Translations under genes and position numbers: made by a program
Source of the DNA: Nitrospirota bacterium
GTDB lineage: Bacteria > Nitrospirota > Thermodesulfovibrionia > Thermodesulfovibrionales > Magnetobacteriaceae
Assembly (NCBI GenBank): GCA_015233615.1
Contig: JADFXJ010000011.1
Location: forward strand, 1-50,209
Direction of reading: 5' to 3'
DNA: 50,209 nt
The notes under the pieces: generated by a model
The model's database searches: none
What the model was told of the DNA's origin: nothing
Seen by the model: only the letters and a program-made list of their open reading frames with translations
Shown: piece by piece, positions 30,129 through 48,700 of the stretch
Layout of the letters: the number at the start of each line of letters is the position of its first letter
How positions within the stretch are numbered: position 1 is the first letter of the stretch

Positions 30129-32204
30129 CTACTTGGAAGAAAACGCCACGCGAAGACCGTATTCTTTGTTGCTACGAAACGCAGGTTTGCCCCAGTTGCG
30201 GCAAGACACCCGCACAATCTGAGACGTGTGGAACCACGAACCTCCGCGAAGCACTCTCTTTTGACCGCTTGAAGGCCCTTTAGGATTATCCTTAGGACTC
30301 TCTCCGTAGTATTTCTCCCCGTACCAGTCCTGTACCCACTCCCATACATTACCATTCATGTCGTATATCCCTAACCCGTTTGGCTTCTTCTGCCCTACAG
30401 GATGCGTTTGTTTGTCTGAATTCTTATCGTACCACGCCACGCTGTCTATATCGTTTCCTCCTGAATACTTCTCCGCTTTCCCACCGCTGCTCGCCGCATA
30501 CTCCCACTCCGCCTCCGTCGGCAGCCGATACCCCTTGCCGCTCATCCCGCTTAGCTTCTTAAGAAACTCTTGCGCATCGTCCCAGCTTATATTCTCAACG
30601 GGATAGTTGTCGCCATTGTTGAATCCAGACGGATTACTCCCCATCACCTTCTGCCACTGCCTCTGTGTCACCTCATACTTCCCTATCCAAAAATCTTCCA
30701 CGCATACCTCATGTACAGGCTTCGCATCCGTTATATCAATATCTCCAAACGTGTTCCCCATCTGATAACACCCACCTTTGACAAAAACCATATCTTTTTC
30801 GAGTTTCGAAATAATTTCTTTCAAATCCGCTTCAATTTTTTCTGATAGTTTCTTTGCCTGGTCTCTATATTTACCGGCAGGGTACTTCTTGAAATATGCC
30901 TTAATGTCATCCAGCGAATCGCTTTCCTTCGCTTTCTGGTACCAGTAATCTTCCTCTGAAGGGAAAGAAGCGGAAAAAACTATTCTGAAGCCGGTATCCC
31001 GGAAAGACGCTGTTGACGGGTGGTCAACGTGGTAATTCGATGAACTGAGGTTCGCAATTTCTCCGTAGCACGTGCCGCCAAGATCAAAATGTTTCCCGTC
31101 GGCACGTGCATCCTGCACCCATTCACTAACGTTACCCAGCATGTCATACAAGCCCCATTGGTTTGGGTGGCGGGTTGCAACGGGATTCGTTCTTTTGCCG
31201 GAATTGTAGTTAAACCATTCGTATTGCCCGGCTTTATCCTTGTCGCTGCCGAAAGGCGCCTCTGTCCCGGTACCTGCCTGTGCCGCATATTGCCATTCAG
31301 CCGCGGTAGGGAGACGATATTTGTTTGTCTTTTCTTTATCGATCAGCTTTTGTATGAATTTTTGCGTATCATCCCAGCTTATTCCCTCTACGGGGTTGTT
31401 CCTGCCATGGTAAATGCTGGGATTCGTTCCCATGATTCTATTCCACTGTTCCTGTGTCACTTCCGTCGTTTGTAGCCAATAGCCTTCGGCCAGGGCTGTT
31501 TTTTGTTTCACGCCCTTCACGTCGCTCATTATGAATTCACCCTTCGGGATATAGACAAACTCCATGCCGAGGCTGTTTACGTATTTCTTGTTGGCCGGGC
31601 CCGATTTCATTACCGGCGTTTCAACTGGTTTTAAAGGGATGGATTGCAAACCGTCGAGTAACTCCTTTGCACTTTCTGCAGCGATTTTGTTTGACTGGCT
31701 TTTATCTGGTTTGCCTTCACTATTCAATGAGTCGTAACCAACTTCACGATAGTGTTTATAGCCAAGCTCTGCATAGTGGTTAGCCTTATCCATTTCGCCG
31801 GCCGCCCAGAAATTCCTCGCTGCTTGCACGGAAGTCAACGTGAGGCCGGCCGAACTTTTTGACACTCCGTCTTTGACCTGTATCAGATATGCTTTTTCAT
31901 ACCAATACGCCGCCTTGGCGTAATTGTATAATTTCTCCTCGGCAATGCCTAAATTGAACGCTATTGCGTCTGAGTTGGGATTTGCCGCCTGGGCGGCTTC
32001 CCAGGCTTTAATAGCCTCCTTATATTCTTCTTGTTTTAAGAAATCGACGCCTTTTTTTACCATGTCAACGTAATAGTCGCTTGCATAATTATTTCCTGTA
32101 GCACATGAAGATAAGATAAGGGCACACACTACCGCCAATATACGGACAGAGTGATACACTTCCGGGAAATAGCCTTTCGTTCTTGGTTCTGTCGCGGTTT
32201 TCAT
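30129..32204 (-). CDS. Lipoprotein with TPR-like region and two degenerate FGE-sulfatase domains
   Basis: 691 residues from ATG 32204 (AAAGGAG upstream). A signal with lipobox LSSC (Cys 34) marks a lipoprotein. A TPR-like region follows (about 45-165), then FGE-sulfatase domain 1 (about 205-425), a linker, and domain 2 (about 470-690). Each has the family landmarks (EVTQxQWxxxMGxNPS, NPVEGISWDD, YRLPTEAEWEYAA, GNVxEWVQD, GLRVAF). The catalytic cysteines of true formylglycine-generating enzymes (the CxxSYC-type segment after GGS) are absent: domain 2 reads GGSWFHTSQIVR. It is therefore unlikely to make formylglycine and may instead bind peptides or a ligand at the cell surface. It overlaps the GT9 gene by four bases and is the last gene of the precursor/maturase operon. 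Confidence 0.88.
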   Translation of the reverse strand: MKTATEPRTKGYFPEVYHSVRILAVVCALILSSCATGNNYASDYYVDMVKKGVDFLKQEEYKEAIKAWEAAQAANPNSDAIAFNLGIAEEKLYNYAKAAYWYEKAYLIQVKDGVSKSSAGLTLTSVQAARNFWAAGEMDKANHYAELGYKHYREVGYDSLNSEGKPDKSQSNKIAAESAKELLDGLQSIPLKPVETPVMKSGPANKKYVNSLGMEFVYIPKGEFIMSDVKGVKQKTALAEGYWLQTTEVTQEQWNRIMGTNPSIYHGRNNPVEGISWDDTQKFIQKLIDKEKTNKYRLPTAAEWQYAAQAGTGTEAPFGSDKDKAGQYEWFNYNSGKRTNPVATRHPNQWGLYDMLGNVSEWVQDARADGKHFDLGGTCYGEIANLSSSNYHVDHPSTASFRDTGFRIVFSASFPSEEDYWYQKAKESDSLDDIKAYFKKYPAGKYRDQAKKLSEKIEADLKEIISKLEKDMVFVKGGCYQMGNTFGDIDITDAKPVHEVCVEDFWIGKYEVTQRQWQKVMGSNPSGFNNGDNYPVENISWDDAQEFLKKLSGMSGKGYRLPTEAEWEYAASSGGKAEKYSGGNDIDSVAWYDKNSDKQTHPVGQKKPNGLGIYDMNGNVWEWVQDWYGEKYYGESPKDNPKGPSSGQKRVLRGGSWFHTSQIVRVSCRNWGKPAFRSNKEYGLRVAFSSK

Positions 32205-33046
32205 ATTTTCTCCTTTATTCTTTCGTAGATTAGTTCCGACCCAATCCTGTTCATGCAATGCTCCCCTGGCCCTCGTTCGCACAGTCGGGCATAAGCATTG
32301 TTTTTCGGCCCTATGCATCCGGCGCGCTGCGCGCACTCCTTAACCGCTCTCAGATGCACATGTCCCCGATAGCCGTATGTTTCGGCGATTGTCGGTCCCC
32401 ACAGCACAACGGCAGGCGTACCTGTAAGATGCGCCAGATGCATGATGAAATTGTCCGGTGTCACCACCATATCGCATCGCTTTACCAGCGCGGCCAATTG
32501 CCGGGGCGTGGTGAGGCCGAGCAAAGAGTACGCCCCGCGTATATGTTTGTTATTCATCTTCCCAACCTGAAGCACAAAGCACCCGTCACGCCTCAGCATC
32601 TTCACCAAATCCACCCAATAACCTATAGCCATCTCTTTTCTTGGTGAGTCGGAGGCGGGGGCTATGATGACGTTGTTCTTCCCAAACGGGATGTCGGCAA
32701 AAAGAGGAACATCCTCCGGCACTCCTGGCATATAGAGTTTTTCTTCCACCGGCACGGACAAACCGAAAATGGAAGCGAGTATCTGAAAGGCACGCTCCGT
32801 GCCGTATTCTTTTCTCGACCAGTAGCCGGTATCGATAATTTCCGCATTCTTTGGCGGGAAGCCGACGGCGTCAAGCGCCGGGTGGCCCTCAAGAATGCTC
32901 AGGTATTTTGTGCGGCGTATGAGGTTGTATTTTCTATCAGGGTTGCAATCGTACGCGAGTTTCAATGCTCCGGAGAGCATCAGTGCGTCGCCAAGCCCTC
33001 CAAGTGGGTTTATCCAGAGATTATCGTGTTTCATCGAAGGGTTCAA
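32201..33046 (-). CDS. Glycosyltransferase family 9 (heptosyltransferase-like)
   Basis: 281 residues. The N-terminal Rossmann half starts NPLGGLGDALMLSGAL; the C-terminal half has the donor-binding block VVTPDNFIMHLAHLTGTPAVV followed by LWGPT, and SDSPRKEMAIGYWVDL in between. This is the GT9 pattern known from lipopolysaccharide heptosyltransferases. The protein is somewhat short and has a Cys-containing C-terminus (CIGPKN, CERGPGEHC) like authentic GT9 enzymes. Its place within the operon (26-base overlap with the upstream radical SAM gene, 4-base overlap with the lipoprotein) suggests that it glycosylates the precursor product, possibly on Tyr or Ser, rather than lipid A. That is inference. 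Confidence 0.85.
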   Translation of the reverse strand: MNPSMKHDNLWINPLGGLGDALMLSGALKLAYDCNPDRKYNLIRRTKYLSILEGHPALDAVGFPPKNAEIIDTGYWSRKEYGTERAFQILASIFGLSVPVEEKLYMPGVPEDVPLFADIPFGKNNVIIAPASDSPRKEMAIGYWVDLVKMLRRDGCFVLQVGKMNNKHIRGAYSLLGLTTPRQLAALVKRCDMVVTPDNFIMHLAHLTGTPAVVLWGPTIAETYGYRGHVHLRAVKECAQRAGCIGPKNNAYARLCERGPGEHCMNRIGSELIYERIKEKI

Positions 33047-34139
33047 ACCTCAATCCCGTTACCGGTTCAAAGTAGCGTTCCAAAAAGCCGCGTTTGGCGT
33101 GGCACCAGTTCGTCTTGTGCCTGAAATCCTTGTGGGTGAACCACGAATCCAGCGGACAGCCGCCGTGGCAGATGGTCCAAAATCGGCACTTGCCGCAGCC
33201 GGAGTTGCGGAGCAGTTCGGTCCGCACAAGGAGTGCTTTGCGTTGCTCGTCCAGCATTACTTCGGAGAAACTCTTTTGTTCCACGTTTCCATAGTCGAGC
33301 ACTCCCCAATCCGAGGAGCGGCCGCAGTGGGAAAGACTCCCGTCCGGTGCGATATTGATATGGCTGTATGCACATCTGCCCGAGTCGCTGCAAACAAGGG
33401 ACTGTCTGCGCTCATCGATAAGGGTTAAATACGACTTAAAAGGGTTAACGTCGGGGTATCTCTCGCGGTGCTCCCACCAGACGGGAAAGATCGCTCCGAG
33501 AAATTCCACAAACTGCTTCGGGGTGATTGCGAGATCCTTTTTCCGTGAGTCGTCTATCAAAACCGGGTGGAAGTCAAAACCGCTCCCGATCTTGAGATTG
33601 GCCATATAGTGAAATAGTTCGAGGGGTTTTTGAAGACTTTTTTTTGTTACCACATAGATTACCCCGGAGGAAAATCCGTGCTTCTTTGACAGTGCATCAC
33701 CCTTCATAAATGCCCTGTTGTAAGTGTCGCTGTCGGGCTTTTCCACGCCGCGACCGCGGACGTGGGGGACAGGATCGAAACTCGACCCTATCTGATCGAT
33801 GCCAAGCTTTCTGAAGACCGGTACAAATGCCTCGCTGAATACCGTAAGGTTTGACTGTATGGCATGGCATATCCGGCCTTTAGTGGCGCCGCAGGTCTCT
33901 TCCTGCATACGATATGCATTTTCGAAATAGTCGGGCCCGAGCAACAACGGCTCGCCGCCGTGCCATATAATGTGAATGTCTTCCTCTTGTTTATCCGTGA
34001 GATATTCGTTTATTCTTTCGAATATGATTCCGAGCGTTTCCGGAGGCATGGTGCGCACCTTGCGCTTTTTACGCGCCACGTCGCAATACAGGCAGTTGGA
34101 GTTGCAATTCTCGGTGGGCTTTAAGATTATGGTTGCCAC
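33021..34139 (-). CDS. Radical SAM/SPASM maturase 2
   Basis: 372 residues. The radical SAM cluster motif CNSNCLYC (Cys 12, 16, 19; CX3CX2C) is followed by the GGEP motif (IWHGGEPLLL). The C-terminal SPASM domain has the full set for two auxiliary clusters: CAYSHINIAPDGSLSHC, then CGKCRFWTICHGGC (CX2CX5CX3C) and a final Cys in NWCHAK. The arrangement is closest to anaerobic sulfatase maturases and peptide maturases of the HxsB kind. It should modify a peptide substrate by radical chemistry, with the Tyr/Ser-rich protein at the head of the operon as the obvious candidate. It overlaps the preceding gene by 13 bases. Confidence 0.92.
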   Translation of the reverse strand: MATIILKPTENCNSNCLYCDVARKKRKVRTMPPETLGIIFERINEYLTDKQEEDIHIIWHGGEPLLLGPDYFENAYRMQEETCGATKGRICHAIQSNLTVFSEAFVPVFRKLGIDQIGSSFDPVPHVRGRGVEKPDSDTYNRAFMKGDALSKKHGFSSGVIYVVTKKSLQKPLELFHYMANLKIGSGFDFHPVLIDDSRKKDLAITPKQFVEFLGAIFPVWWEHRERYPDVNPFKSYLTLIDERRQSLVCSDSGRCAYSHINIAPDGSLSHCGRSSDWGVLDYGNVEQKSFSEVMLDEQRKALLVRTELLRNSGCGKCRFWTICHGGCPLDSWFTHKDFRHKTNWCHAKRGFLERYFEPVTGLRFEPFDETR

Positions 34140-34990
34140 AACGCCCTCCTGTTTCGGAGCACCTTCAGGTGCTCCTCTGCCGCGGCAAGCATTTCACGAA
34201 AGAACTTTTTACAGCCATCTTCCTTGTTGCTGCATACGCCTTCAAACTCTCCAAGACAGACCCTCCATACATCGCAGTAGGCGCAGCCCTCGGCCTTGAG
34301 AAAAAACTCCCGCCATGATTCGAGAGCATCCTGAAATGCCGGGTTTTCGGTTATCGAGGGGATGTCGGCAATATCATGCGCAATGAAGTTTCCGGATTCA
34401 ATGTCTTCCATACGGAGTGCGATTTGGCCGTCTTTCGACAGATGGAGATAGTATTGCGGATTATTGAAAAATACGGCCTGCCATGAGTTGCTCTCCGCCT
34501 GGTTGTAATGGGTCAGCAGATAGTAAAAAGGTTCTATGGGCGCATGAGGGCTCTTGCCATACATGGTGTAGGCGGCGAGGTCCGCGAGGGCATTCCAGTC
34601 CGGCTCTGCACCCGTGAAGTAAAGGCCCGTGGCTATCCCCATGGATGACAGTATGCGGCATGATATTAAATTACAGCTTTTGTCGGCGGGGAAAAAGATT
34701 CGGCTGTTGAATCCGCGCAGCCGTTCGACCACGCTGTCCACGTCTGCGTATCTCCCCGCTTCAGCCAGATAAAGGGCCATCGGGATATCCCTGTGCTCCT
34801 CCGAAAGGGGCAGTTCTGCAAGACGCGCATCGGACGAGACCTTTATAGCAAAGAGCGAATTGGCGTCATGAACCGTTTTGTAAATCTCAGACGCAAGCGC
34901 GAAGTTGCCGGTACGTACGACGAAAGCGGCGCCATTAAATGATTTGATGAGTTCTTCGTGGTAATCGACGACGAGGGTATGGGGACTCAT
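34127..34990 (-). CDS. SPASM-like partner protein lacking a radical SAM core
   Basis: 287 residues. The N-terminal 230 have no CX3CX2C motif and match no family I know. The C-terminus has a cysteine cluster CAYCDVWRVCLGEFEGVC then C (Cys 236, 239, 245, 253, 260), like the CX2CX5C part of a SPASM domain. It looks like a maturase that has lost the radical core, or a dedicated binding partner that holds an iron-sulfur cluster and presents the substrate. Stop/start overlaps on both sides (4 and 13 bases) tie it to the two radical SAM enzymes. Confidence 0.75.
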   Translation of the reverse strand: MSPHTLVVDYHEELIKSFNGAAFVVRTGNFALASEIYKTVHDANSLFAIKVSSDARLAELPLSEEHRDIPMALYLAEAGRYADVDSVVERLRGFNSRIFFPADKSCNLISCRILSSMGIATGLYFTGAEPDWNALADLAAYTMYGKSPHAPIEPFYYLLTHYNQAESNSWQAVFFNNPQYYLHLSKDGQIALRMEDIESGNFIAHDIADIPSITENPAFQDALESWREFFLKAEGCAYCDVWRVCLGEFEGVCSNKEDGCKKFFREMLAAAEEHLKVLRNRRALWQP

Positions 34991-35988
34991 TGGTAGAATT
35001 CCGGAAGCCTTACGTTGGCTTCGTTGACGAAGGCTGACAGTGCATGTGCGGCACAGCCTCCCATGCAGATATCATCTTCACGAAAGCGGCAGTCGTCGCA
35101 TTCCCCGAATATGCCGCCCACTTCGACCCGTATGGAGCGGTGGCGTTCATGGTAGAAATCAAACACATCACGCATGGAATCGAACTCGAAGATGGACTTT
35201 TTGTGGTGTGCGGAGAGGGGAAAACAAGACCAGACCGACATGTCCGGGCCGATGTCTATGACCGGCGAGCAGCCGAACTGGAAACGTCCGCCCGTCATCC
35301 TGTAGAGCCACCCTTTGTCTTCGGTCGTAAAGTGGCACATCGGGAACCCGCAGTCCGGCAGGGGCCTGACCCTGTGGCGCTCGAACTTATCGCGGAACGA
35401 CATAAGCCGCCGAACCGTAATCGCCATGTCTGCTATTTTAATATGCATGTTGCGTGTGCCGGGGATGGGATGCGCAAGACCGAGCCTGATTCCCTTTCCA
35501 AGACCATACCGATTGATGTAATCGAAAAGGAAGTCGATATCGAAATCATTGCGGTAGATGTTGAATCCGGGGGTGATGCGCCTGCCAAAGGCCTCCAGAA
35601 AATCAGCCACCAATACCGATTCGCTCTTTGGGGTATGCTCCGGGTGGTTCAGATTGCATACAAAGCTGAGCCGGTCCTCGCGTATCCCTGAAAATCTCCG
35701 CACTGCGTCCGATAGTTTGTCGGGAAGCAACATCCCGTTGGTGAATACGGTAACACCCATCCCCCGCCTGAGCACGTAAAGACAAAAGTCTATGAAATCC
35801 GGATGAAGAGTCGGTTCGCCACCCAGAAACTGTACTCTGGTCTCTCCGGATAACTGGAGAAAGTCTACGAGATATATAAGGTCTTCCCAAGAGAGGATAT
35901 CGTCGGGGGGTGAGCCGGCCATGTGCTTTTTGGCGAAGCAGTAAGGGCATGAGCGGGTGCAGCGTTGCGTGAGGAGAATATTAGCCAT
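34987..35988 (-). CDS. Radical SAM/SPASM maturase 1
   Basis: 333 residues. CTRSCPYC (Cys 10, 14, 17) binds the radical SAM cluster; FLGGEPTLHPDF holds the GGEP motif. The C-terminal SPASM/twitch region has CSPVIDIGPDMSVWSC and CDDCRFREDDICMGGC (CX2CX6CX3C). It is only distantly similar to maturase 2, so the two probably act on different residues or steps. It begins eight bases after the stop of the Tyr/Ser-rich precursor gene, the tightest possible link between enzyme and substrate, and overlaps the SPASM-like partner by four bases. Confidence 0.92.
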   Translation of the reverse strand: MANILLTQRCTRSCPYCFAKKHMAGSPPDDILSWEDLIYLVDFLQLSGETRVQFLGGEPTLHPDFIDFCLYVLRRGMGVTVFTNGMLLPDKLSDAVRRFSGIREDRLSFVCNLNHPEHTPKSESVLVADFLEAFGRRITPGFNIYRNDFDIDFLFDYINRYGLGKGIRLGLAHPIPGTRNMHIKIADMAITVRRLMSFRDKFERHRVRPLPDCGFPMCHFTTEDKGWLYRMTGGRFQFGCSPVIDIGPDMSVWSCFPLSAHHKKSIFEFDSMRDVFDFYHERHRSIRVEVGGIFGECDDCRFREDDICMGGCAAHALSAFVNEANVRLPEFYQ

Positions 35989-35996
35989 TTCAGCAA

Positions 35997-36434
35997 TTAC
36001 GGATATATATCGCCATGGAAATAGTAGCGGCTGTAATTAAAGCTGCTATATTTCCAATATTGCCGATCATACATACTACTATATTGGCTGAAGTAACTAT
36101 GACTGCCGTAACTACCATACATAGCACTACCGTAGTTAGCGCTATAGTAATAGGAGCCATAGGGGCGAAAGGCTGACGAATATTGATCTGCGTAATTCCC
36201 CTTGTCGAAAGTACTCGAATACGTATGGCTGCTTGAGTAGCTCGTGTAATCGGCATAGGTCGTGGGTTTTTCCTGCTCACCGGCCTCGGCATGGCTGTTA
36301 TAGCGTATAATCTCTTCGGCCTCCTGTGCGGCAAAGACCTTTGTTCCGACCATCAGCGACCCCATTGCCAAGCCTTTAAGAGCTATCCTCTTCATCGCTT
36401 CTCTTCTGGTAATCTCTTTTTTTGACTCGTCCAT
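35997..36434 (-). CDS. Tyr/Ser-rich exported precursor, likely radical SAM substrate
   Basis: 145 residues. The N-terminus has a twin-arginine-like leader (ITRREAMKRIALKG, residues 8-21), a hydrophobic stretch (GLAMGSLMVG) and a signal-peptidase site after KVFA (residue 35). The remaining 110 residues contain about 23 Tyr and 21 Ser and are low in hydrophobic residues. Tyr-x-Ser occurs 13 times (YSS, YGS, YTS, YFS and so on), densest in residues 60-140. Repeated aromatic-x-Ser patterns are typical of substrates for SPASM enzymes that make crosslinks (for example His-Xaa-Ser systems), so this is probably a modified, exported protein. Folding on its own seems unlikely. The start follows AAAGGTGGTG. 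It is first in a six-gene operon with two radical SAM enzymes directly behind. Confidence 0.8.
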   Translation of the reverse strand: MDESKKEITRREAMKRIALKGLAMGSLMVGTKVFAAQEAEEIIRYNSHAEAGEQEKPTTYADYTSYSSSHTYSSTFDKGNYADQYSSAFRPYGSYYYSANYGSAMYGSYGSHSYFSQYSSMYDRQYWKYSSFNYSRYYFHGDIYP

Positions 36435-38227: not shown

Positions 38228-38337
38228 ACAAAAACCGGCCGGATATGATATTATAATAAAGTTTTAATGTCGCGAATAATATCGCAAATAACGAATTGGC
38301 CCCGATGCTGGAAATGTGGATTTCCGAGGATACCTTT

Positions 38338-39045
38338 ATGAAGAACGGTAATGGCTTTACGTTAATCGAGGTACTTGTGGTGTTGACCATCGTCGGCATT
38401 CTCACCGGGTTGCTCGTGTATCAGTTTGCCGGGCAGACCACGAAAAGCAACGTCGAGTTAACCATAAAGCAGCTCTACGCCGATCTTTCGGAGATACGGA
38501 TGCGGGCGATGTCAGATAAGTTGTACGCCGGATTGTACTGGAATAATATCTCGCTTGTTGGAAATTATAACATCACAAGCTATGAGATGCGGACGGACGC
38601 TGCCAATGGGGCTACCATTGCAAACGGCTCAATCAGAGACGCGGGCATGGGATTATGTACGGGCACCAACGGCTGCACTCTTGTAAAGCCGACGGTTACA
38701 CCCGTGACGGTAGCACCCGCTGCTGCGTTATACACCTTATATTGGATAGACAACGTTACCTTCGACGACAAGGGGATGCTGGCCCTTGACCCTAACCCCC
38801 CCAGCCCACTCTTCGTCGCCCCTATAGAAATCTACGCAAAATGTTTTGGGTGCGATACATCCTCTTCATGCAGCGATAGTAACCTTAGCGCTTGCAGGCC
38901 GGCCGACACATCCCCGAACTGTAATGATACGTCCTATCCGGAATACTCGTGTTTAGTAGTAAATACGACTTTTATAAAAATGGGCAAGTGGTGCGATGCC
39001 AATCAAAATGGAGTGTATAACATCGGTGAATGCTCACTTAGATAA
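38338..39045 (+). CDS. Type IV pilus minor pilin, FimT/GspH-like
   Basis: 235 residues from ATG 38338 (GAGGAT upstream; a TTG at 38296 is in frame but unlikely). A short leader ends in Gly just before FTLIEVLVVLTIVGILTGLL, the class III prepilin signature with Glu 5, cleaved and methylated by PilD. The globular part has six or more Cys near the C-terminus (KCFGCDTSSSC, CRPADTSPNC) that probably form disulfides. First gene of a pilin operon; as a minor pilin it would sit at the pilus tip and help initiate assembly. It overlaps the next frame by about 50 bases. Confidence 0.85.
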   Translation: MKNGNGFTLIEVLVVLTIVGILTGLLVYQFAGQTTKSNVELTIKQLYADLSEIRMRAMSDKLYAGLYWNNISLVGNYNITSYEMRTDAANGATIANGSIRDAGMGLCTGTNGCTLVKPTVTPVTVAPAAALYTLYWIDNVTFDDKGMLALDPNPPSPLFVAPIEIYAKCFGCDTSSSCSDSNLSACRPADTSPNCNDTSYPEYSCLVVNTTFIKMGKWCDANQNGVYNIGECSLR

Positions 39046-39493
39046 GTATTTGGATAACGGGGGGTTTTCCCTGGTTGAGGCCATGGTGTCCATGGTGATT
39101 CTGACGATTGTCACGCTTGGACTGCTTCAGACCATAATCCTGGTCAACGACGCCAACATGAAGAATTTCCTCAGGGACGAAGGCGTAAAGGTAGGCCAGG
39201 AGGACATCGACAGCGAGCGGCTTCTCGCTAAAGGCACCGGCGACCTGAGCGCCATAGTATCGGCAGGCTCACTGCAGGCCTCCCCGCCTGCAAAGTACCC
39301 ATGCGTGCCGAATTCCACGGGCACCGTCAATATTACCAGGCAGTTTAAAAACGCGACAATTACTTTTAACATATGCAGGTCGGTGACTCCGGCCGGTACC
39401 GGCAGCGTGAGGCTTGACGAAGTCGTTACCTGGCTGTTTAAAAATGAAACCTTCTCGTACGTCACAACAACTATAATAAGGCCTTTATCATGA
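38996..39493 (+). CDS. Minor pilin, PilV-like
   Basis: About 165 residues. The prepilin cleavage site is GG|FSLVEAMVSMVILTIVTLGL with Glu 5. The leader length depends on the start: ATG 38996, ATG 39008 and GTG codons between are all possible, and none has a strong ribosome binding site, so translation is probably coupled to the preceding gene. It has two Cys in the C-terminal half. Its gene overlaps the PilW-like gene by four bases (ATGA). Confidence 0.85.
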   Translation: MPIKMECITSVNAHLDKYLDNGGFSLVEAMVSMVILTIVTLGLLQTIILVNDANMKNFLRDEGVKVGQEDIDSERLLAKGTGDLSAIVSAGSLQASPPAKYPCVPNSTGTVNITRQFKNATITFNICRSVTPAGTGSVRLDEVVTWLFKNETFSYVTTTIIRPLS

Positions 39494-40818
39494 AAAATTT
39501 TGGAATTTATAAAATCTTTGGCAATAAAGCAGGCTTCACGCTTACGGAGCTGCTGGTGACGATGTTTATTCTTGCCGCCATATTAGGTGCCGTCTTTTCA
39601 TCTTTTATCACTCTTTCGCGAAGTTTCAAGATGGAGACAAAGTCAACGGAAACGCAGATAGAGAACCTGTTAGGCCTCGAATTACTCAGGTACGATCTCG
39701 AAATGGCCGGTTACGGTCTTCCGGAGAGTTCTTTTGGGACGACAGCTTGCACACCTGTACCGCCTAATACGTCGGAAAATTGCTCGCCGTTGCTTTCCGC
39801 TGCCGGCGTCTGGTACGCAGAAGCCGCTAACAACACCGCTTACACAGCTACACATTATAATTACATACCGACCCGGTACACCCCGGACCCTGCGACTTTC
39901 AATGACCAGCCATGGGAACCGCGGGCCATCATTCTTTCCAACAATACAAATCCCGGTGAGAGTACCAACACTAACGATGACTCGGACGTGCTTATAATTA
40001 AATCCCTCCTGGCAAGAAGGCTCGACGTTAATAGAAAGTGGACGGTAAGGTACAATTCAGGCGTCAACAAGGCCTGGAGTGACTCCAAGTGGGACTTTAA
40101 TAGTGGTGATAGGATGATAGTGTTATCGGCGACCCGGCAACTACAACTAGGTTCCGATGGTGTAACCTGGCAGTGGATGCAATCGGGGGCATCCCCATCG
40201 ACGTCCTTTTACCCTACCGGAGTCGCGCTGCCAACTCCTCCCCCAGGCCAGGTTTATCTCCTGTACGGAATAGACACGTCAACTTCCACTACAATGCCAT
40301 TCAATCGTGTCGATTACTATTTGCAGAGGCAATGTCCCGGTAACATAGTATCTACCCCGCCACTACCTAGCCCGACGCCAAACTGCTCGCCGCCGTACCC
40401 CAAACAGTGCCATCCAAGTTCATATTCCCTTTACAGGGGATTAATTGACCCCGCTTATTATGGCACAGGCACCGGCGGAGGATATATAAGAACCGAGTTG
40501 CCCATCATGGATTGCGTTATGGACTTTCAGGTAGCCCTGGGTATAGATATAGGCACCACCGGTACCGTTACATGGCGTTCTGGAACCGATACCGATACTG
40601 CCACGGCCCTTAAAATAAGGAATAATCTCAAGCAGGTAAAAGTGTTCATCCTGACCCACGAAGGTCAGTATGACCCGAATTTTACGTATGGGAGCAATAC
40701 CGTGACCCTTGGCGACGCCGGCATTACTCTTAAAACTTATGACCTCACGCGTTTGTCGAATTGGCAGCACTACAGGTGGAAGGTAGTAAAATTAAACATA
40801 AAATTGAACAGCCTGTGA
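39490..40818 (+). CDS. Minor pilin, PilW-like
   Basis: 442 residues. Prepilin signature KAG|FTLTELLVTMFILAAILG with Glu 5, then a large periplasmic domain with RYDLEMAGYG, the block characteristic of PilW. Cysteines pair up in Pro/Ser-rich loops. PilW-type proteins are part of the tip complex with PilV, PilX and PilY1. The start overlaps the previous stop by four bases. Confidence 0.87.
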   Translation: MKNFGIYKIFGNKAGFTLTELLVTMFILAAILGAVFSSFITLSRSFKMETKSTETQIENLLGLELLRYDLEMAGYGLPESSFGTTACTPVPPNTSENCSPLLSAAGVWYAEAANNTAYTATHYNYIPTRYTPDPATFNDQPWEPRAIILSNNTNPGESTNTNDDSDVLIIKSLLARRLDVNRKWTVRYNSGVNKAWSDSKWDFNSGDRMIVLSATRQLQLGSDGVTWQWMQSGASPSTSFYPTGVALPTPPPGQVYLLYGIDTSTSTTMPFNRVDYYLQRQCPGNIVSTPPLPSPTPNCSPPYPKQCHPSSYSLYRGLIDPAYYGTGTGGGYIRTELPIMDCVMDFQVALGIDIGTTGTVTWRSGTDTDTATALKIRNNLKQVKVFILTHEGQYDPNFTYGSNTVTLGDAGITLKTYDLTRLSNWQHYRWKVVKLNIKLNSL

Positions 40819-40846
40819 AAATAGAGGTATGTAAGAGGTAAGCAAT

Positions 40847-41485
40847 ATGAGAAACTTAACGTTGCATCCTGAATGGAATAAAAAAATATATAAGGAACTG
40901 GACTGCCGCTTCCCGGTCGTAGCCGGGGACAAGTTTCGCGACAATGACAGAAAGGGCAGGGAGGAGGGTTTTGCCCTGGTGATAACCATGCTTTTTGCTC
41001 TTATTGGGCTGGCTCTAAGCGGAGCCCTGCTCTTTATGGTCATAGAGGGGTCGAAAATATCCGGCATTATGCAGCGTTACTCTACCGCACTTGACGCCGG
41101 CAAGGGGGCGTCCGAAGATATGATGAACCTCATGACTGGCTACCCTACAACTATGACCCCCGGTTTTGGAACAATCCAAACTACCAACGGAGCTAATTGC
41201 ATTTATGACAAGCTCTCCAAGTCCACCCTCACTTCGGCCGGCACGTACCAGTGGACAAACTGCACCGCGAGCCAGGCAAATACAACGAGCACGGACCCGA
41301 CAAATTACCCGGATATAATTTCAGACCTTGGTAATTACCGGGTATATTCGAAAATAACGGATACGGAGCAATCAGGGACAACGTCACCAATCTACATGAT
41401 ATACACCGTGGTCACATTATCGCAAAAAATAAACAACCCAAGTGAAAACGCCCAGATTACATATTTATTTCGCGTTACCGAATAA
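40847..41485 (+). CDS. Minor pilin, PilX-like
   Basis: 212 residues. A long hydrophilic N-terminus (about 40 residues) precedes EEGFALVITMLFALIGLALS, the PilX N-terminal motif; cleavage would fall after Gly. The rest is a pilin-like globular domain with two Cys. GAGGTAAGC precedes the ATG. PilX works with PilY1 and the other minor pilins in pilus initiation. Confidence 0.83.
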   Translation: MRNLTLHPEWNKKIYKELDCRFPVVAGDKFRDNDRKGREEGFALVITMLFALIGLALSGALLFMVIEGSKISGIMQRYSTALDAGKGASEDMMNLMTGYPTTMTPGFGTIQTTNGANCIYDKLSKSTLTSAGTYQWTNCTASQANTTSTDPTNYPDIISDLGNYRVYSKITDTEQSGTTSPIYMIYTVVTLSQKINNPSENAQITYLFRVTE

Positions 41486-41589
41486 ATCCGGCAACTCCGC
41501 CGACGCTTTGCGCAGCCGTACCGGATTATGGTTAAAGACGCATAATGATGGAAAAGACGCTTGATGAAAGAAAATACACGAACCTTTGT

Positions 41590-41640
41590 GTTACGTTAAC
41601 GTTACATTATCAATGTATATATACATATACACACATATAT
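41590..41640. repeat. Palindromes upstream of the major-type pilin gene
   Basis: ACGTTAACGT (about 41593-41602) and TGTATATATACA (about 41614-41625) are perfect palindromes directly before the ribosome binding site GGAGGT of the pilin at 41654. They could be an mRNA-processing or regulator site that sets this pilin's expression apart from the genes before it. Confidence 0.35.
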
Positions 41641-41653
41641 GGAGGTAAACAGC

Positions 41654-42151
41654 ATGAAAGAGCAGAGCACTATACAGACCACTATAATGTCTCCGACGGG
41701 AGAGTTGCCGTTGTCCGTTCGATCCGAAGATGGAAAGGATGGAGGTTTTACCCTTACGGAGCTTCTCGTGACAATAGTAATTATAGGAATATTAACCGCC
41801 ATAGCGGTGCCCCTTTACCTTGGACAAAAGGATAAATCCATAAGAAGCGAGGCATCGGGAAACCTGCTGTCGATAAGAGCGCTGTTAGAGCAGTACTATA
41901 ACGAAAACGGATGCTATTACAAAGACACTACCAATACCTGCCCGGCGACCTCCACCACCATTACGGGTGTTACAAGCATCCAGTCATTCCTGCCGGCCTT
42001 TAAGCCGGGTAACCAGAATGCGCTTAATTATTCCTACAGCATCATATTCACCAGCTCTGCCACCTTGTACACCGCTTACGCCAATCGAGCAGTAAGCGGC
42101 GGCACTCAAACTCTGAGTATCGACCAGAACAGCACCAAGGTAGGGTTCTGA
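41654..42151 (+). CDS. Type IV pilin (PilA/PilE-like)
   Basis: 165 residues from ATG 41654, which has GGAGGT seven bases upstream. A long leader (about 31 residues) ends KDGG|FTLTELLVTIVIIGILTAIA with Glu 5, then the typical alphaN extension and EASGNLLSIRALLEQYYNENGCY. A Cys pair (CYYKDTTNTC) is short-spaced. The size and form fit a major pilin or PilE-type minor pilin. A 28-codon frame (42153) follows, without a ribosome binding site, and is not called. Confidence 0.88.
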   Translation: MKEQSTIQTTIMSPTGELPLSVRSEDGKDGGFTLTELLVTIVIIGILTAIAVPLYLGQKDKSIRSEASGNLLSIRALLEQYYNENGCYYKDTTNTCPATSTTITGVTSIQSFLPAFKPGNQNALNYSYSIIFTSSATLYTAYANRAVSGGTQTLSIDQNSTKVGF

Positions 42152-42267
42152 TATGATTTACAAAATGTTAAACAGGGCTATAAACGTAAAGGATATGGAA
42201 ACATGGAAGCCAGAGCCTTATTTACAACGAGATATATAACCGAATTGTATAACAATAAGGGGGATTT

Positions 42268-42690
42268 ATGCTTATGAAAACTAAATTGGTCTTAACGATA
42301 GCCATAGCCGTAATCATAACGATAACCGGCAATATCGCCTATGCGTATAATTCGAAGCAACGTCTGGATACCGGCAATGCATCAGCACCGCCAATAAGGC
42401 AAAACGGCGACAAAACAGGTTTCGTTTACGAAACTTCCCTCTCGCCTCAATATTTAGTGATAGGCGAAAGAACGTATAATACCGACCAGGCAGTTTTTTC
42501 TACCGTGGACGGTGCAGCGATCTCGTTTTCCGACATATCGAAGGGCAGTAAAGTGAAGCTTCTTTTCGATCAATCGGGAGTTGTGACAAATGTAATTTTG
42601 TATAAGGATTCGGGACAAAATACCGGAAGAGGCCGCTACGGCACCGGTACCGGCAGAGATCACAATCTGGATTTACGCAATACCCGATGA
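42268..42690 (+). CDS. Small exported protein between pilin and PilY1
   Basis: 140 residues with a signal peptide (MKTKLVLTIAIAVIITITGN, cleavage near AYA). The mature part has SPQYLVIGERTYNTD and VDGAAISFSDISKGSKVKLL, a small beta-rich fold, and ends in a Gly/Arg-rich tail GRGRYGTGTGRDH. No family is assigned. AAGGGGGAT precedes the ATG. It may be a periplasmic accessory of pilus assembly, by position. The stop is followed by a duplicated segment GATAAGCAGTAACA (42708 and 42725). Confidence 0.7.
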   Translation: MLMKTKLVLTIAIAVIITITGNIAYAYNSKQRLDTGNASAPPIRQNGDKTGFVYETSLSPQYLVIGERTYNTDQAVFSTVDGAAISFSDISKGSKVKLLFDQSGVVTNVILYKDSGQNTGRGRYGTGTGRDHNLDLRNTR

Positions 42691-42702
42691 ATAATCCATC
42701 GC

Positions 42703-42740
42703 ATAAGATAAGCAGTAACATAAAGATAAGCAGTAACATA
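42703..42740 (+). repeat. Tandem duplication after small exported gene
   Basis: GATAAGCAGTAACATA is present twice, 17 bases apart, 15 bases after the stop codon. It is a third case of short direct repeats just after a stop codon in this window. Confidence 0.55.
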
Positions 42741-42787
42741 TTTAAATTATAAACCACCTAAAAAAGAAGAATCGGGAGTGTAGATCA

Positions 42788-45700
42788 ATGAAAAAGATAC
42801 TTTACATTTATATTCTCATATCGCTGTTAGTTTTCACAGGTATCGGTTACGTCGAAGGCGGCATGACAAATTATTGCTCTACACCTCCCTTCGTTACGGC
42901 CGCAGTTTCGCCTAATTTAATGCTCATCCTCGACAATTCGGGTAGTATGAAGGATAACCAGGCTTACCCGGACTGCGTCGGTAGCAGTTGTCCGAGCTCG
43001 TCCGACTGTGGAACTTCGACTACTCCCTGCACCGGGTTTAATCCCAACGTCAAGTACTTTGGCATATTTAACCCGGATTACTGGTATACCTATAGTGCCG
43101 CTGCCGGCTCCAGTTCGTGGACGGCTAGCTGCTGCGTTAATGACAGGTTTATTTCCGACGGAAAGAAAACTTCACATACTAAGAATGCGAATGATTGGGA
43201 CGGCAGTTTCTTAAACTGGCTGACTATGATCAGGGTTGACATTGCAAAGACGGTTCTCACGGGTGGCAAAATTATGACCACTACGATTAATTCCGGCTAC
43301 ACTGCGGAACCCTCGGGCTTCACGCGGGTTTTTGCCGACGACGCCGATACTAGTTTTTATAAAAGCGTATGCCAGCCTTCGCTGTATACCTCTTTAAGCG
43401 ACCCTGCAAACTACTGTATCAATACTCTCAATACCACCAGTTCTCTTACCGCTTCGTCGCCTGTTACCGGAGGCAATCTGGCTCACGGCACCACTTACTA
43501 CTATAAAATATCTTCCTGTGACGGCACCGGCCATTGTACCATAGTTAACCAGTCAAGTGTAATCGAAGCGTCGCAATCTATTGCAGCTACGGGCACGCTA
43601 CAAACCATACCACTTGCATGGAGTGCCGTTACCGGTGCAAGTTCCTACACAATATGGCGTGGCACAACCACCGGTGGTGAGAATGTATGTCTCAAAAACG
43701 TTGCAACGAATTCTCTTAACGATGCAAATGTTAATACTACCGGTACCAACGCTTTTACCGCGGCTCAATGTCCTACTTTAGCAATGACCAACTTCACCGT
43801 TGCCGGAACAAACGGCGATTATACGACTATACCACATTTTTACAATAGTTCCGCAAGTACCTCATGGATGCAACAGTTGCAGGCTCCCTCGCCGCTTTCG
43901 GGCGCCATACAGGAGATTAACACTAATGTAAGATGGGGCCTTACTTATTATAATAACAATGAAGGCGGCCACGTTCAGGTAAATATAGCCAGCAATAATT
44001 ACCAGACAGTTATCGATCAGATAAATCAGATGACGCCTTCGACGTGGACCCCCCTTGCCGAAACGTTGTGGACCGTGGTCGGATACTTTGCCCAGAAAGC
44101 TTCGGGTGTAGGTACAAACAGCTATGGCACGGGCGCCGGAGGCACCGGGCCATTGTACCATACCGGAGATTACACGATAAGCGCGGCGGCTGACCCGTAC
44201 CAGAACTTCCTTACGTTAAGCGGAACCTACGTTACCGCTCCATGCGCCCAAAGTTACGTCATACTGATAACCGACGGCAACCCGACCCAGGATGCAAACA
44301 TACCTTCGGGTATAACCGACTACGCAAGAGGCTCGGTAAGCGGGGTGCCCGCTACGAGCTATAACTGTGAGCCTTATGCCACTTCGTCGACGTCGTCATC
44401 GACGTGCGGCGGCTCTTCCAGCAGCACCTGTGCCTGCCTTGCGGCGGGGCCTTTTACCGCATCCAGCATTTTCTATGATGGAGGCGGAGCTAAGGGGGGA
44501 CTCGAAGACGTGGCTTATTTCATGCACACAACCGACCTCAGGCCGGATTTAACGGGTACCCAGTCGCTGACTTTATATACAGTCTTTGCCTTCGGAGACA
44601 ATGCAACACTCCTCGAATATGCGGCGATTAACGGGAGTTTTACTTACTCAGGTACCAACACGCACCCCAGTACGAGCGGTACCTATTCAGATTGGACCAC
44701 CGATACCACCACCCATATTCCAAATAATTACTTTGTTGCTTCAGACGGTTATGGTTTACAAACGTACCTTAGAAAAACATTCCAGGAAATCGTAAAAAGG
44801 GCAGGGGCCGGAACGTCCGCCTCCGTGCTGGCAGATAAGGTCAGTGCGGGTGATAACGTTTTACAGGCGGCTTTTTTCCCTTCCAAGGACTTTAATAACG
44901 GCTCGACTACTTTAGCCTGGATGGGCTATTTAAACAATCTCTGGCTTTATAACTCCAACACTGTAACAAACATGAGAGAAGACACTAATCAAAATGACAT
45001 GCTGGATTTAGTGCCGGACTATATTATAGGATTCGATTTCGTTAATAACCAGTTAGTCGTCCACCGTTGGCAAGATACAAACGGAACCGGGAAAGCCACG
45101 ACCCAATTAACCGATGAAACGATGGACCAATTAATCCCAATCTGGGAATCCGGCAATCTGTTATTTCAGAGAAGTCCTCTCTCTTCGGATACCAATAGAA
45201 GGATAATTTACGTAAACGGAAAAGTCGACGCGGGAGATACCTATCCCAAATCCACGGCCAATGGAAAGTTGGTGGAGTTAACTTCGGCAAACCAAAGCTC
45301 CTTCTCGAATTATATAAGTACTCTCGCCACGCCCGTTTTAGCTACTATAACCGCTTCCAGCGGTGGTTCTCTCGTTTATACCACTCCGGGTGCGACTAAT
45401 TATTATTATAAGGTAACCGCTTTAGACGGTATTAACGAAACGCCTCTTTCGAACGAACTCTTCGTCCCAACTACAAGTGCGAATAAGACGATAACCATTA
45501 CGTGGAACGCAGTAGCCGGTGCGACCGATTATCACGTTTGGCGTGGAACCACCGCCGGCGGCGAAACACAATATTTTGATACCGGTTCGACGGCATTGTC
45601 TTTTACCGACAACGGTGCCCGTACTTTTACGACGGCCACGCTTCCCACGTCGATAGCCGACGAGGTAATTTCATATACCAGAGGTACGGATACGACGGGG

Positions 45701-48700
45701 TCAAGAAGCAGAACCGTAACCCTGAGCATTAATGGATCGACTACGAACACCTGGAAATTAGGAGACATAGTTTATTCCACTCCCCTCGTTCAGACGTACA
45801 CACCAGCCGCCGGCCAGACGACACCGGATTATTCCGTCGCGTTTGTCGGAGCCAACGACGGTATGCTTCACGCTTTCGAAGTCGGCAAAATTTCGAAAAG
45901 CGGTCTTCCAAGCGGCAGCGTAGATAAGCTTGTCGACGAAAGCGGTAATAGTCCCAGCACCCTGCTTGGCAAAGAATTATGGGCATTTGTCCCCCGCAAT
46001 TCTCTGCCGTATCTGAGATACCTTGCCGATCCTAACTACTGCCACCTTTACTATGTCGACTTACATCCCTATGTTACCAAAAACGGCAGCCAAATCATCC
46101 TTATAGGAGGAATGAGGCTTGGCGCCGCCTGCGGCTGCTCCGTCTCCGGCGGCAGTTGCACGTCCGACCCCACTATAACTCCCCCGGTCGATACGTGTCC
46201 AAACAGCAGAGCCACCGACGGCTCTTGCACCGGAACGTCGTCCTACTTTGCCCTCGACATAACCGCTCCTAATAATCCGGTAGTTCTTTGGGAATATACC
46301 GACCCCGATTTGGGATTCAGCTTCTCGGGACCTGCCGTTATTACGAAAAGCGGCACCAAGTTCGTAATGTTCTTAAACGGGCCGCAAACCTACGACGGCA
46401 AGTCTTTCGAATCTTTAACCGCTTTTGTGCTGAAATTAAACGCTGATTTTACCATTAACGCCAAGTACAAATTAAATCCCTTTAACGGCGCAGATATTAC
46501 CTCTACGGGCGCCGTTTATTCCACGTGCGATTCCACCTCTTACTACTGTAAGGCCTATGGCGGACGGTTGTTCACCGACAGTACGGATATTGACGGCGAC
46601 GGCAATACGGATTACGTGCTGTTCGGATTTACTCAAACATTGGGGACGTGCGGCGGAACTACGACGGGCAAAGTCTGTAGTACAAACAGCGATTGCCCTA
46701 CTAACTGCGTTTCGGCCACGTCGGGTACGTGCGGCGGAGTTACGGGTGGAATAAGCTGTACTAGCAACGCCGCTTGTCCGACTTGTAGTCTTACTACGTC
46801 AGGTGTATGCAGTTTACATAGAACACAGAGTTGTGCAAATAATAGCGCTTGCACTACGAATACTTGTAGCGGTGGTGGCGCAGGCACGTGCGGCGGTATC
46901 TCAGGTGGTTATAGCTGTACGACAAACGCCAATTGTTCGACAAATACATGTCAACAACAACAAACTTGTGGTGCTATCATTGGGGCCACTTCGTGTACTT
47001 CGGACAGCCAGTGTTCCGGAAATTCATGTACCATCAGTTCTGCAAAAAGTTGCGGCGGTTTGGGGAATGTTAGCTGTACGACAGACGGCAATTGTTCGAC
47101 TAATAGTTGTTCCCACAACGCTTGCACTTTAACGGGAGAGTACTGTTCTTCCTACGGACACCATTGTTCGACGAGCTGTAGTGCGCCTACGTCGGGAACT
47201 TGTAGTTTAACTGGTGAAACCTGCTCACATAACTGGGATTGTTCAACTAACTGCGACGCTCCCTGGAATGCGTCCAGTACCTGCACTTTATCGGGGGGCA
47301 CCTGCACTATCGATTGGCGTGGTAATGATAATTGCCCGAGAACATGTAGTGGCGCCGGGTCGGGAACGTGTGCCGTAACCGGAGTCGCGTGTTCCGGCAG
47401 TAACCTGTGTGCGAGTAACTTCTGTGGTACGGGACAGTGCGGGGGAAATGCATTAGGAAACATATGTGCTTCCAGTGCCGACTGTCCAACCGCTTGTACT
47501 GCAACCACATCGGGTACCTGCGGCGGATTAGGTGTCACAACTTGCACTTCAGACAGCGCTTGTTCTGCGGATACGTGCTCCGGTGGAAGATGTAGCGTAT
47601 CGGGCGGGAGTTGCCGCTACAGCAGCCAGTGTGCAAATACTTGTGTTTTTACGAATACCTGCGGCGGAACTTCAGGTGGAATACCATGTACCGTTAACTG
47701 GAGGGGACAGAGTGATTGCCCGACGACTTGTTCCGGTATTGCCACCGGAACATGCACATTGCCAAGTGGAGCTTCTACGGGACAAAGCTGCTCTACAAAT
47801 GCGGATTGCCCCGCTAGCTGTGTAACGCACACGGTAGGGACCTGCGGAGGAATTTCAGGCGGATTAGCCTGTACTACGAATGCCGATTGTCCAACCGGCT
47901 GCACTGCGGGAATATCTAAATTGCAGGGTAACGTTTTGGCGTTGTTTATATCGGGTACGGATCCGACGTCCGCATGCAGCGGTGCCGACTGCACCACGTG
48001 GTCGGGATGCTGGAAATTCCGGCCTGTTTTCAGCACCGCCCAGGGGCCGTTTACCGCAAGAGTAACTACGGGCGAGTGTCAAAGCCAGGGCGCAACTAAA
48101 AGTTATTACCTCTTTACCGGTTCGGGAAAATATTTTATTCCCGCCGACGATTACCCGCAGAGCGTCCTTACCAACGATTATATTTACGGTATGCACTTCT
48201 GTGATTCGAATGAAACACACCTTGGGTGTTGCCTGAGGAGTGGAGGCCTTTATGTTACTGCCAGCGAAGCGGCCAGTTGCGCAGACTACGCAACGTATAA
48301 AAGCAGCACAACCAATAATTTTATGTGGAAATACATGTTAGACCCCGCGGAAATGGATGCCACCACCACTCTGAATTATGCCAGGGAAAGGGATATATCC
48401 GATCCGTCGGTTACTAGTGCAAACATAACGTTTGTTTCGACGACGCAACCCTCTTCGGATATCTGTGCATATGGAGGAAGGTCAAGGGTGTGGGCCCTCA
48501 ACTGTGCAACCGGTGGAGCTACATTTGCGACTAGCTGCACGACTGCCGCCGATTGCGCAGCCGGCCAGACGTGCACGGCCAGCACGTCTAAAACCTGTGG
48601 TGGAACCATGACTGCGGATGCTTGTAACACCAATAGCGATTGTACCTCCGGCACTTGTACGACTATCAGCACGTGCCAATGCTCCACTGCCGCCATAACG

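Follow-up and report, generated by a model that had tools for sequence, protein, structure and literature searches.

A Tyr-x-Ser repeat protein encoded beside radical SAM genes in a Nitrospirota genome appears to be a new kind of radical SAM substrate exported by the Tat pathway

The window analysed here, a stretch of 50,209 nucleotides from contig JADFXJ010000011.1 of a Nitrospirota bacterium of the Magnetobacteriaceae (GenBank assembly GCA_015233615.1), carries on its minus strand (36434-30129) six genes encoding, in order, a small Tyr- and Ser-rich protein, a radical SAM enzyme (rSAM1), a pseudo-radical-SAM/SPASM protein (pseudo-rSAM), a second radical SAM/SPASM enzyme (rSAM2), a GT9-family glycosyltransferase and a lipoprotein. 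Judged from its sequence, the small protein appears to be a new kind of radical SAM substrate, namely a repeat-rich surface protein exported by the twin-arginine translocation (Tat) system, with a maturation resembling that of triceptides. This proposal draws on four observations: the precursor gene is associated with the enzyme genes, its leader is conserved, Tyr and Ser are spaced i/i+2 in its core, and it is linked to Tat genes. No description of such a system was found among the literature matches listed.

The precursor gene (35997..36434, minus strand, 145 aa) encodes the leader RREAMKRIA, which reads ITRREAMKRIA in its wider context, followed by a core with 23 Tyr and 21 Ser. This core contains 13 Tyr-x-Ser tripeptides against 4.3 expected from 2000 residue shuffles (p=0.0005, the lowest p that this number of shuffles allows), and the counts given in a preliminary description of the locus, as well as the length of 145 residues, hold. 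When the cores of the 17 precursors recovered (the window and 16 other loci) are pooled, Ser occurs at Tyr+2 221 times, compared with 115 expected in the shuffle test, and at Tyr+1 172 times, compared with 116, while it is depleted at Tyr+3 (70 against 114); the Tyr-x-Ser spacing behind the earlier reading is not due to chance. Taken singly, 12/17 cores show an excess of Tyr-x-Ser and 14/17 an excess of Tyr-x-[SNDT] (p<0.05 in both cases); the core of genome G1618 passes the former test and not the latter (p=0.08). Among those Tyr that have a +3 neighbour, 57% have Tyr there, so the core is a three-residue repeat.

The leader motif R-[DEN]-A-[LIM] is found near the N-terminus of a small protein in 17 of the 21 loci compared. 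By eye, 16 of these 17 leaders contain twin Arg and 12 the following Lys-Arg, while four (G096, L014, L015 and L018) end in a lipobox-like Cys. No Tat-signal family was matched by the window precursor in Pfam and NCBIfam scans, and its twin-arginine reading was made by eye. A paralogous precursor in the same genome (L020 9606-9920) keeps R-D-A-I-K-R-I-A despite having CR in place of the twin Arg, which might point to a further function of the leader besides Tat export.

The loci were gathered via the rSAM1 gene, and the association counts hold for rSAM1-bearing loci. Profiles of the four enzymes, run over open reading frames (ORFs) of at least 60 aa in the 21 loci, detected rSAM1 in 21, pseudo-rSAM in 19, rSAM2 in 17 and GT9 in 14, with the recurring order rSAM1, pseudo-rSAM, rSAM2, GT9. 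The place of the precursor varies with lineage: it precedes rSAM1 in some and stands at the opposite end, after GT9 or rSAM2, in others. Some gaps in the gene complement are contig ends (L012, L018, L052). The precursor is missing in L012, where the contig ends soon after rSAM2, in L016, where rSAM2 is also missing and pseudo-rSAM is without its cysteines, and in L044, where rSAM1 is truncated. The recurrence of a leader-bearing protein in 17/21 loci supports the earlier view that precursor and radical SAM genes belong together. Maturases beside other substrates, which the preliminary description had named as a sign against its pathway, were encountered in a weak form, in that L013 and L052 have cores of another kind behind the same leader.

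Of the 12 loci returned by a scan of genome contigs for rSAM1, 11 are close kin, belonging to Bacteroidetes, Elusimicrobia, Spirochaetes and a single Gammaproteobacteria bin. The rSAM1 family was present in 2/60 relatives and in 4/198 genomes of the window's phylum, and in further samples in 1/395, 3/296 (two distant), 2/198 and 5/395, each tally including its centre genome and the samples overlapping. These low tallies indicate that the family is rare and patchy; a result of 0/200 in the phylum of G225 was run without a control and carries no weight. The pseudo-rSAM family was found in 4/178 genomes of the window's phylum, the same four that carry rSAM1 in the sample of 198. A second copy of the cluster (L020, rSAM1 57% identical) exists in the window's own genome. 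Left out of the 21 loci were L019 (25% identity over 99 residues), L039 and L040 (distant, with PqqD) and, as same-place duplicates, L001, L002, L007, L017, L022-L033, L038, L042, L043 and L045-L049; L017/L044, a truncated rSAM1 beside a transposase-like ORF, was retained as one of the 21. A tree, in which 4/18 inner branches are well supported, mixes phyla, and its starred set of 10 rows includes the window's phylum, the G15xx/G16xx genomes and one Elusimicrobia row. This mixing suggests transfer, though it is no proof of it.

Concerning export, a TatA gene scoring over the Pfam cut-off is separated from the precursor by 33 to 144 bases in four of the 21 loci (L008, L010, L015 and L053), the distance in L010, by annotated ORF start, being 48 bases. 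In L015, a TatC gene (1.1e-47), the second one of genome G222, comes after TatA, and directly after both stands a 566-aa ORF (L015 12212-13912) in which a TatA/TatB-like start is joined to a radical SAM domain (5e-10). This start reaches 14.3 bits against the Pfam cut-off of 21, and an E-value of 6.7e-4 with a profile of four TatA. As far as gene positions indicate, the precursor is genetically linked to the Tat translocase, and the Tat export proposed earlier gains genetic support from these neighbours.

In three loci the precursor has an additional domain. The precursors of L050, L051 and L053 have Lcl_C at their C-terminus (39 to 45 bits against a cut-off of 34.9). The rSAM1 genes of genomes G1618 and G1508 agree at 1009/1014 bases and the bodies of their Lcl-type domains at 267/269, while over the last 151 bases of the domain only 110 are alike. 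In G1508, a template repeat (L066 1062-1212) adjoins bAvd and a reverse transcriptase (RT) gene (RVT_1), and the end of the precursor (L051 4269-5144) differs from this template at 26/148 positions, 23 of the 26 at template A. Because of these mismatches, and of the RT and bAvd beside the template, the G1508 precursor is taken as the retroelement's target, and its Lcl-type C-terminal domain is, by this sequence signature, the variable region of a diversity-generating retroelement. The G1618 precursor's own template was not found by comparison with the templates of L060 and L066, both of which were rejected, only 22/45 and 27/43 mismatches, respectively, falling at A.

The six minus-strand genes of the window are linked as described earlier, with an 8-base gap after the precursor gene and then overlaps of 4, 13, 26 and 4 bases. 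The family calls made earlier were also recovered, with Radical_SAM in the second and fourth genes, SPASM in the fourth, Glyco_transf_9 in the fifth and two FGE-sulfatase stretches in the sixth. rSAM1 (34987..35988, minus strand) has CxxxCxxC at residues 10-17 and matches Pfam Radical_SAM (3.9e-15). It has no Pfam SPASM match, and its SPASM character is deduced from the invariant C-terminal cysteines C296-x2-C-x7-C-x3-C (alignment A1) and from its predicted structure (pLDDT, the predicted local distance difference test, 80.7), which is nearest to the folds of SuiB, SkfB and anSMEcpe. This qualifies the earlier assignment of rSAM1 to the radical SAM/SPASM enzymes. The pseudo-rSAM protein (34127..34990, minus strand) is without CxxxCxxC and has four C-terminal cysteines (alignment A2); it has no family match over cut-off in Pfam or NCBIfam, and its sequence no match in the PDB. 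As its model (pLDDT 86) has a whole radical SAM/SPASM enzyme, CteB (5why), as its nearest, weak match (Foldseek E 5e-4, TM 0.53 by query), the protein is, on its predicted structure, a pseudo-radical-SAM protein with a decayed radical SAM fold and not a lone SPASM domain, which corrects the earlier label of a SPASM-like protein without a radical core.

rSAM2 (33021..34139, minus strand) carries SPASM by the family scans and belongs to the anSME/cyclophane-synthase group. Its best NCBIfam models, all below cut-off, are DynA (146 bits, cut-off 450) and anSME (131, cut-off 349), then DarE, DarW and AmcB, and its nearest PDB chain is anSMEcpe (4k37, E 3e-28). Cys276-Asp277 of anSMEcpe aligns with Cys-Gly in the rSAM2 family, invariant in 11/11 rows; the lack of this Asp, the catalytic residue after the SPASM Cys, speaks against formylglycine formation. 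Among the best 25 matches listed, rSAM1 and rSAM2 miss every NCBIfam equivalog cut-off, and so neither joins a named cyclophane-synthase family. Both maturases lack the N-terminal extension in which a recognition domain could lie. Two single-sequence queries found no PqqD in the 21 loci, a weak negative, as a marginal PqqD some 7 kb away in L016 escaped them. At L039 8012-9228 and L040 7726-9057, distant rSAM1 relatives adjoin a PqqD protein, which suggests loss of this partner in the Tyr-x-Ser family. The pseudo-enzyme-like neighbour in L039 was considered as kin of the pseudo-rSAM family and no kinship was found. The GT9 glycosyltransferase (32201..33046, minus strand) matches Pfam Glyco_transf_9 (4e-11).

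Among known systems, the triceptides (maturases XncB, OscB/GrrM, MscB/FxsB, YxdB and YhhB) share with the present loci a radical SAM/SPASM maturase adjoining a repeat-bearing precursor. Their links join residues i and i+2, including Phe-Ser by MscB and Tyr-Asp by YxdB (PMC11002830), and the same aromatic-x-polar spacing is seen here in the pooled cores, not in L013 or L052 singly. They differ in that rSAM2 stays far below their cut-offs (GrrM 95 of 310, FxsB 63 of 370, YhhB 88 of 445), and in that the loci described here combine two radical SAM enzymes with a pseudo-enzyme and GT9, and the precursor a putative Tat leader with up to dozens of sites and sometimes a folded C-terminal domain. Because of the family scores below cut-off, and with no bond observed, we do not file the cluster as a triceptide. 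anSME, whose structure is the closest solved one to rSAM2, has a protein substrate that is subsequently exported; unlike anSME, the rSAM2 family has Gly for Asp277, and no sulfatase substrate is present, though L035 has a sulfatase downstream of GT9. The collagen-like adhesin Lcl resembles the three precursors that end in its C-terminal domain behind a three-residue-repeat stalk, but the Lcl stalk is collagen Gly-x-y, whereas here a Tyr-x-Ser repeat, a putative Tat leader and radical SAM genes are found. In the His-Xaa-Ser system, two radical SAM enzymes, HxsB and HxsC (PMC9062424), likewise accompany aromatic-x-Ser repeats; these repeats have His, not Tyr, and rSAM2 scores 59.4 bits for HxsB against a cut-off of 370. 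Finally, DarE and DynA are the best NCBIfam relatives of rSAM2, which scores below their cut-offs, but their clusters make short peptides exported by ABC transporters (PMC9055067).

We consider it fairly probable that the product is a Tat-exported, multiply i/i+2-crosslinked and perhaps glycosylated surface stalk, a reading in which we infer the leader docking, the crosslinks, the glycosylation and the stalk role. In the cytoplasm, the conserved leader would dock the precursor on a complex of rSAM1, pseudo-rSAM and rSAM2. The radical SAM enzymes would then form C-C or C-O bonds between Tyr i and the Ser (or Asn/Asp/Thr) at i+2, at repeated sites of the core, in the manner of the triceptide cyclophane synthases, whose i/i+2 linkages (PMC11002830) are the reason for proposing this step. 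GT9 may glycosylate hydroxyls. The stiffened product, which presumably cannot be threaded through Sec, would leave by Tat and then form a stalk or coat on the cell surface, with a lipid anchor in those loci whose leader has a terminal Cys, and in three loci it would carry a C-terminal binding domain.

A number of observations weigh against the crosslinked stalk. Five of the 17 cores alone show no Tyr-x-Ser excess (L008, L014, L015, L013 and L052), L013 and L052 have no Tyr-x-[SNDT] excess either, and L052 repeats Tyr-x-x-Ser instead (8 against 1.5 expected); moreover, the 17 precursors do not count as independent cases (L008-L010; G1618/G1508). In L041, where the four enzymes are all present, no precursor was found, and GT9 is missing from L014 and L015. 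With respect to Tat, the L020 paralogue has CR for RR together with a weak hydrophobic stretch, and no Tat-signal hidden Markov model scored over its cut-off among ten precursors scanned, L052 coming closest (16.5 bits against 16.7). TatA is not nearby in 17/21 loci. TatC occurs in 18/20 cluster genomes but also in 19/20 Bacteroidota controls, so that its presence does not discriminate and was rejected as a test of Tat use, and in G218 the locus is intact yet TatC was not found in the genome.

Some of these data would suit enzymes that modify Tyr or Ser singly, for example by oxidation, epimerisation or formation of a Tyr-derived redox cofactor, the period reflecting only extended or beta structure. 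The three-residue period, with Tyr recurring at +3, could be structural in origin, L052 has its spacing shifted to Tyr-x-x-Ser, and the rSAM1 model resembles varied enzymes, including BlsE and the epimerase EpeE, and not only cyclases. We nevertheless hold this to be rather unlikely, given that the Ser excess at +2 with depletion at +3 agrees with the i/i+2 rule known from the closest family and that an anSME-type Ser oxidation would have to proceed without its Asp in rSAM2. It is still more doubtful that the locus makes an ordinary peptide natural product with an antibacterial or metal-binding function, secreted and then cleaved into small cyclophanes: neither a transporter nor a protease is among the gene rows listed, and the lipobox-like Cys in 4/17 leaders and the folded C-terminal domain of three precursors suit a surface protein, even if the layout is that of a radical SAM maturase with its precursor and darobactin maturase relatives are among the best NCBIfam matches. 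Very little credence is given to a coincidental adjacency, with the enzymes acting elsewhere and the Tyr/Ser-rich protein not being a substrate; L041, with enzymes and no nearby precursor, speaks for it, but the association in 17/21 loci extends over several phyla, with the precursor on either side of the enzymes.

The last gene of the window operon (30129..32204, minus strand) encodes a lipoprotein with TPR and two FGE-sulfatase-fold domains (Pfam FGE-sulfatase 2.1e-77). It probably starts at ATG 32204, giving a 4-base overlap with the stop of GT9, to which it is translationally coupled. Since no homologue was found in the other 20 loci, it was rejected as a core part, and the role at the cell surface suggested earlier finds no support; by this distribution it is window-specific, and probably either accessory or unrelated to the core. 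As a candidate retroelement target it was also rejected, no template being found in the loci around the three RT matches of its own genome, a weak test because this genome is 79.9% complete. Elsewhere in the window (38296-48934), prepilin-like ORFs in a run and a 2048-aa ORF resemble, by eye, a type IV pilus minor-pilin region. In other loci, a sulfatase overlapping GT9 by 4 bases and then a phosphodiesterase follow GT9 (L035 4816-8710), and the precursor is followed by LysM/SLT transglycosylase genes that are homologous between L008 (10040-11719, assigned by Pfam) and L010 (8261-9898).

Radical SAM peptide crosslinking involves short peptides exported by ABC or similar transporters. If the crosslinked, Tat-exported stalk is true, it links this crosslinking with what is treated as a separate field, the passage of folded proteins through Tat. 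A product stiffened covalently while still in the cytoplasm would account for the dependence on Tat, and it would represent a new chemistry of protein fibres. We therefore put forward, tentatively, a possible new class of surface protein, in which a repeat stalk stiffened by many Tyr-to-Ser radical SAM crosslinks would be exported via Tat by a dedicated TatA (once with TatC and a TatB-like/radical SAM fusion) and serve as a platform for binding domains, including in one lineage a lectin-fold tip rewritten by a retroelement. In that lineage, the crosslinked stalk would then bear a binding tip diversified by a retroelement.

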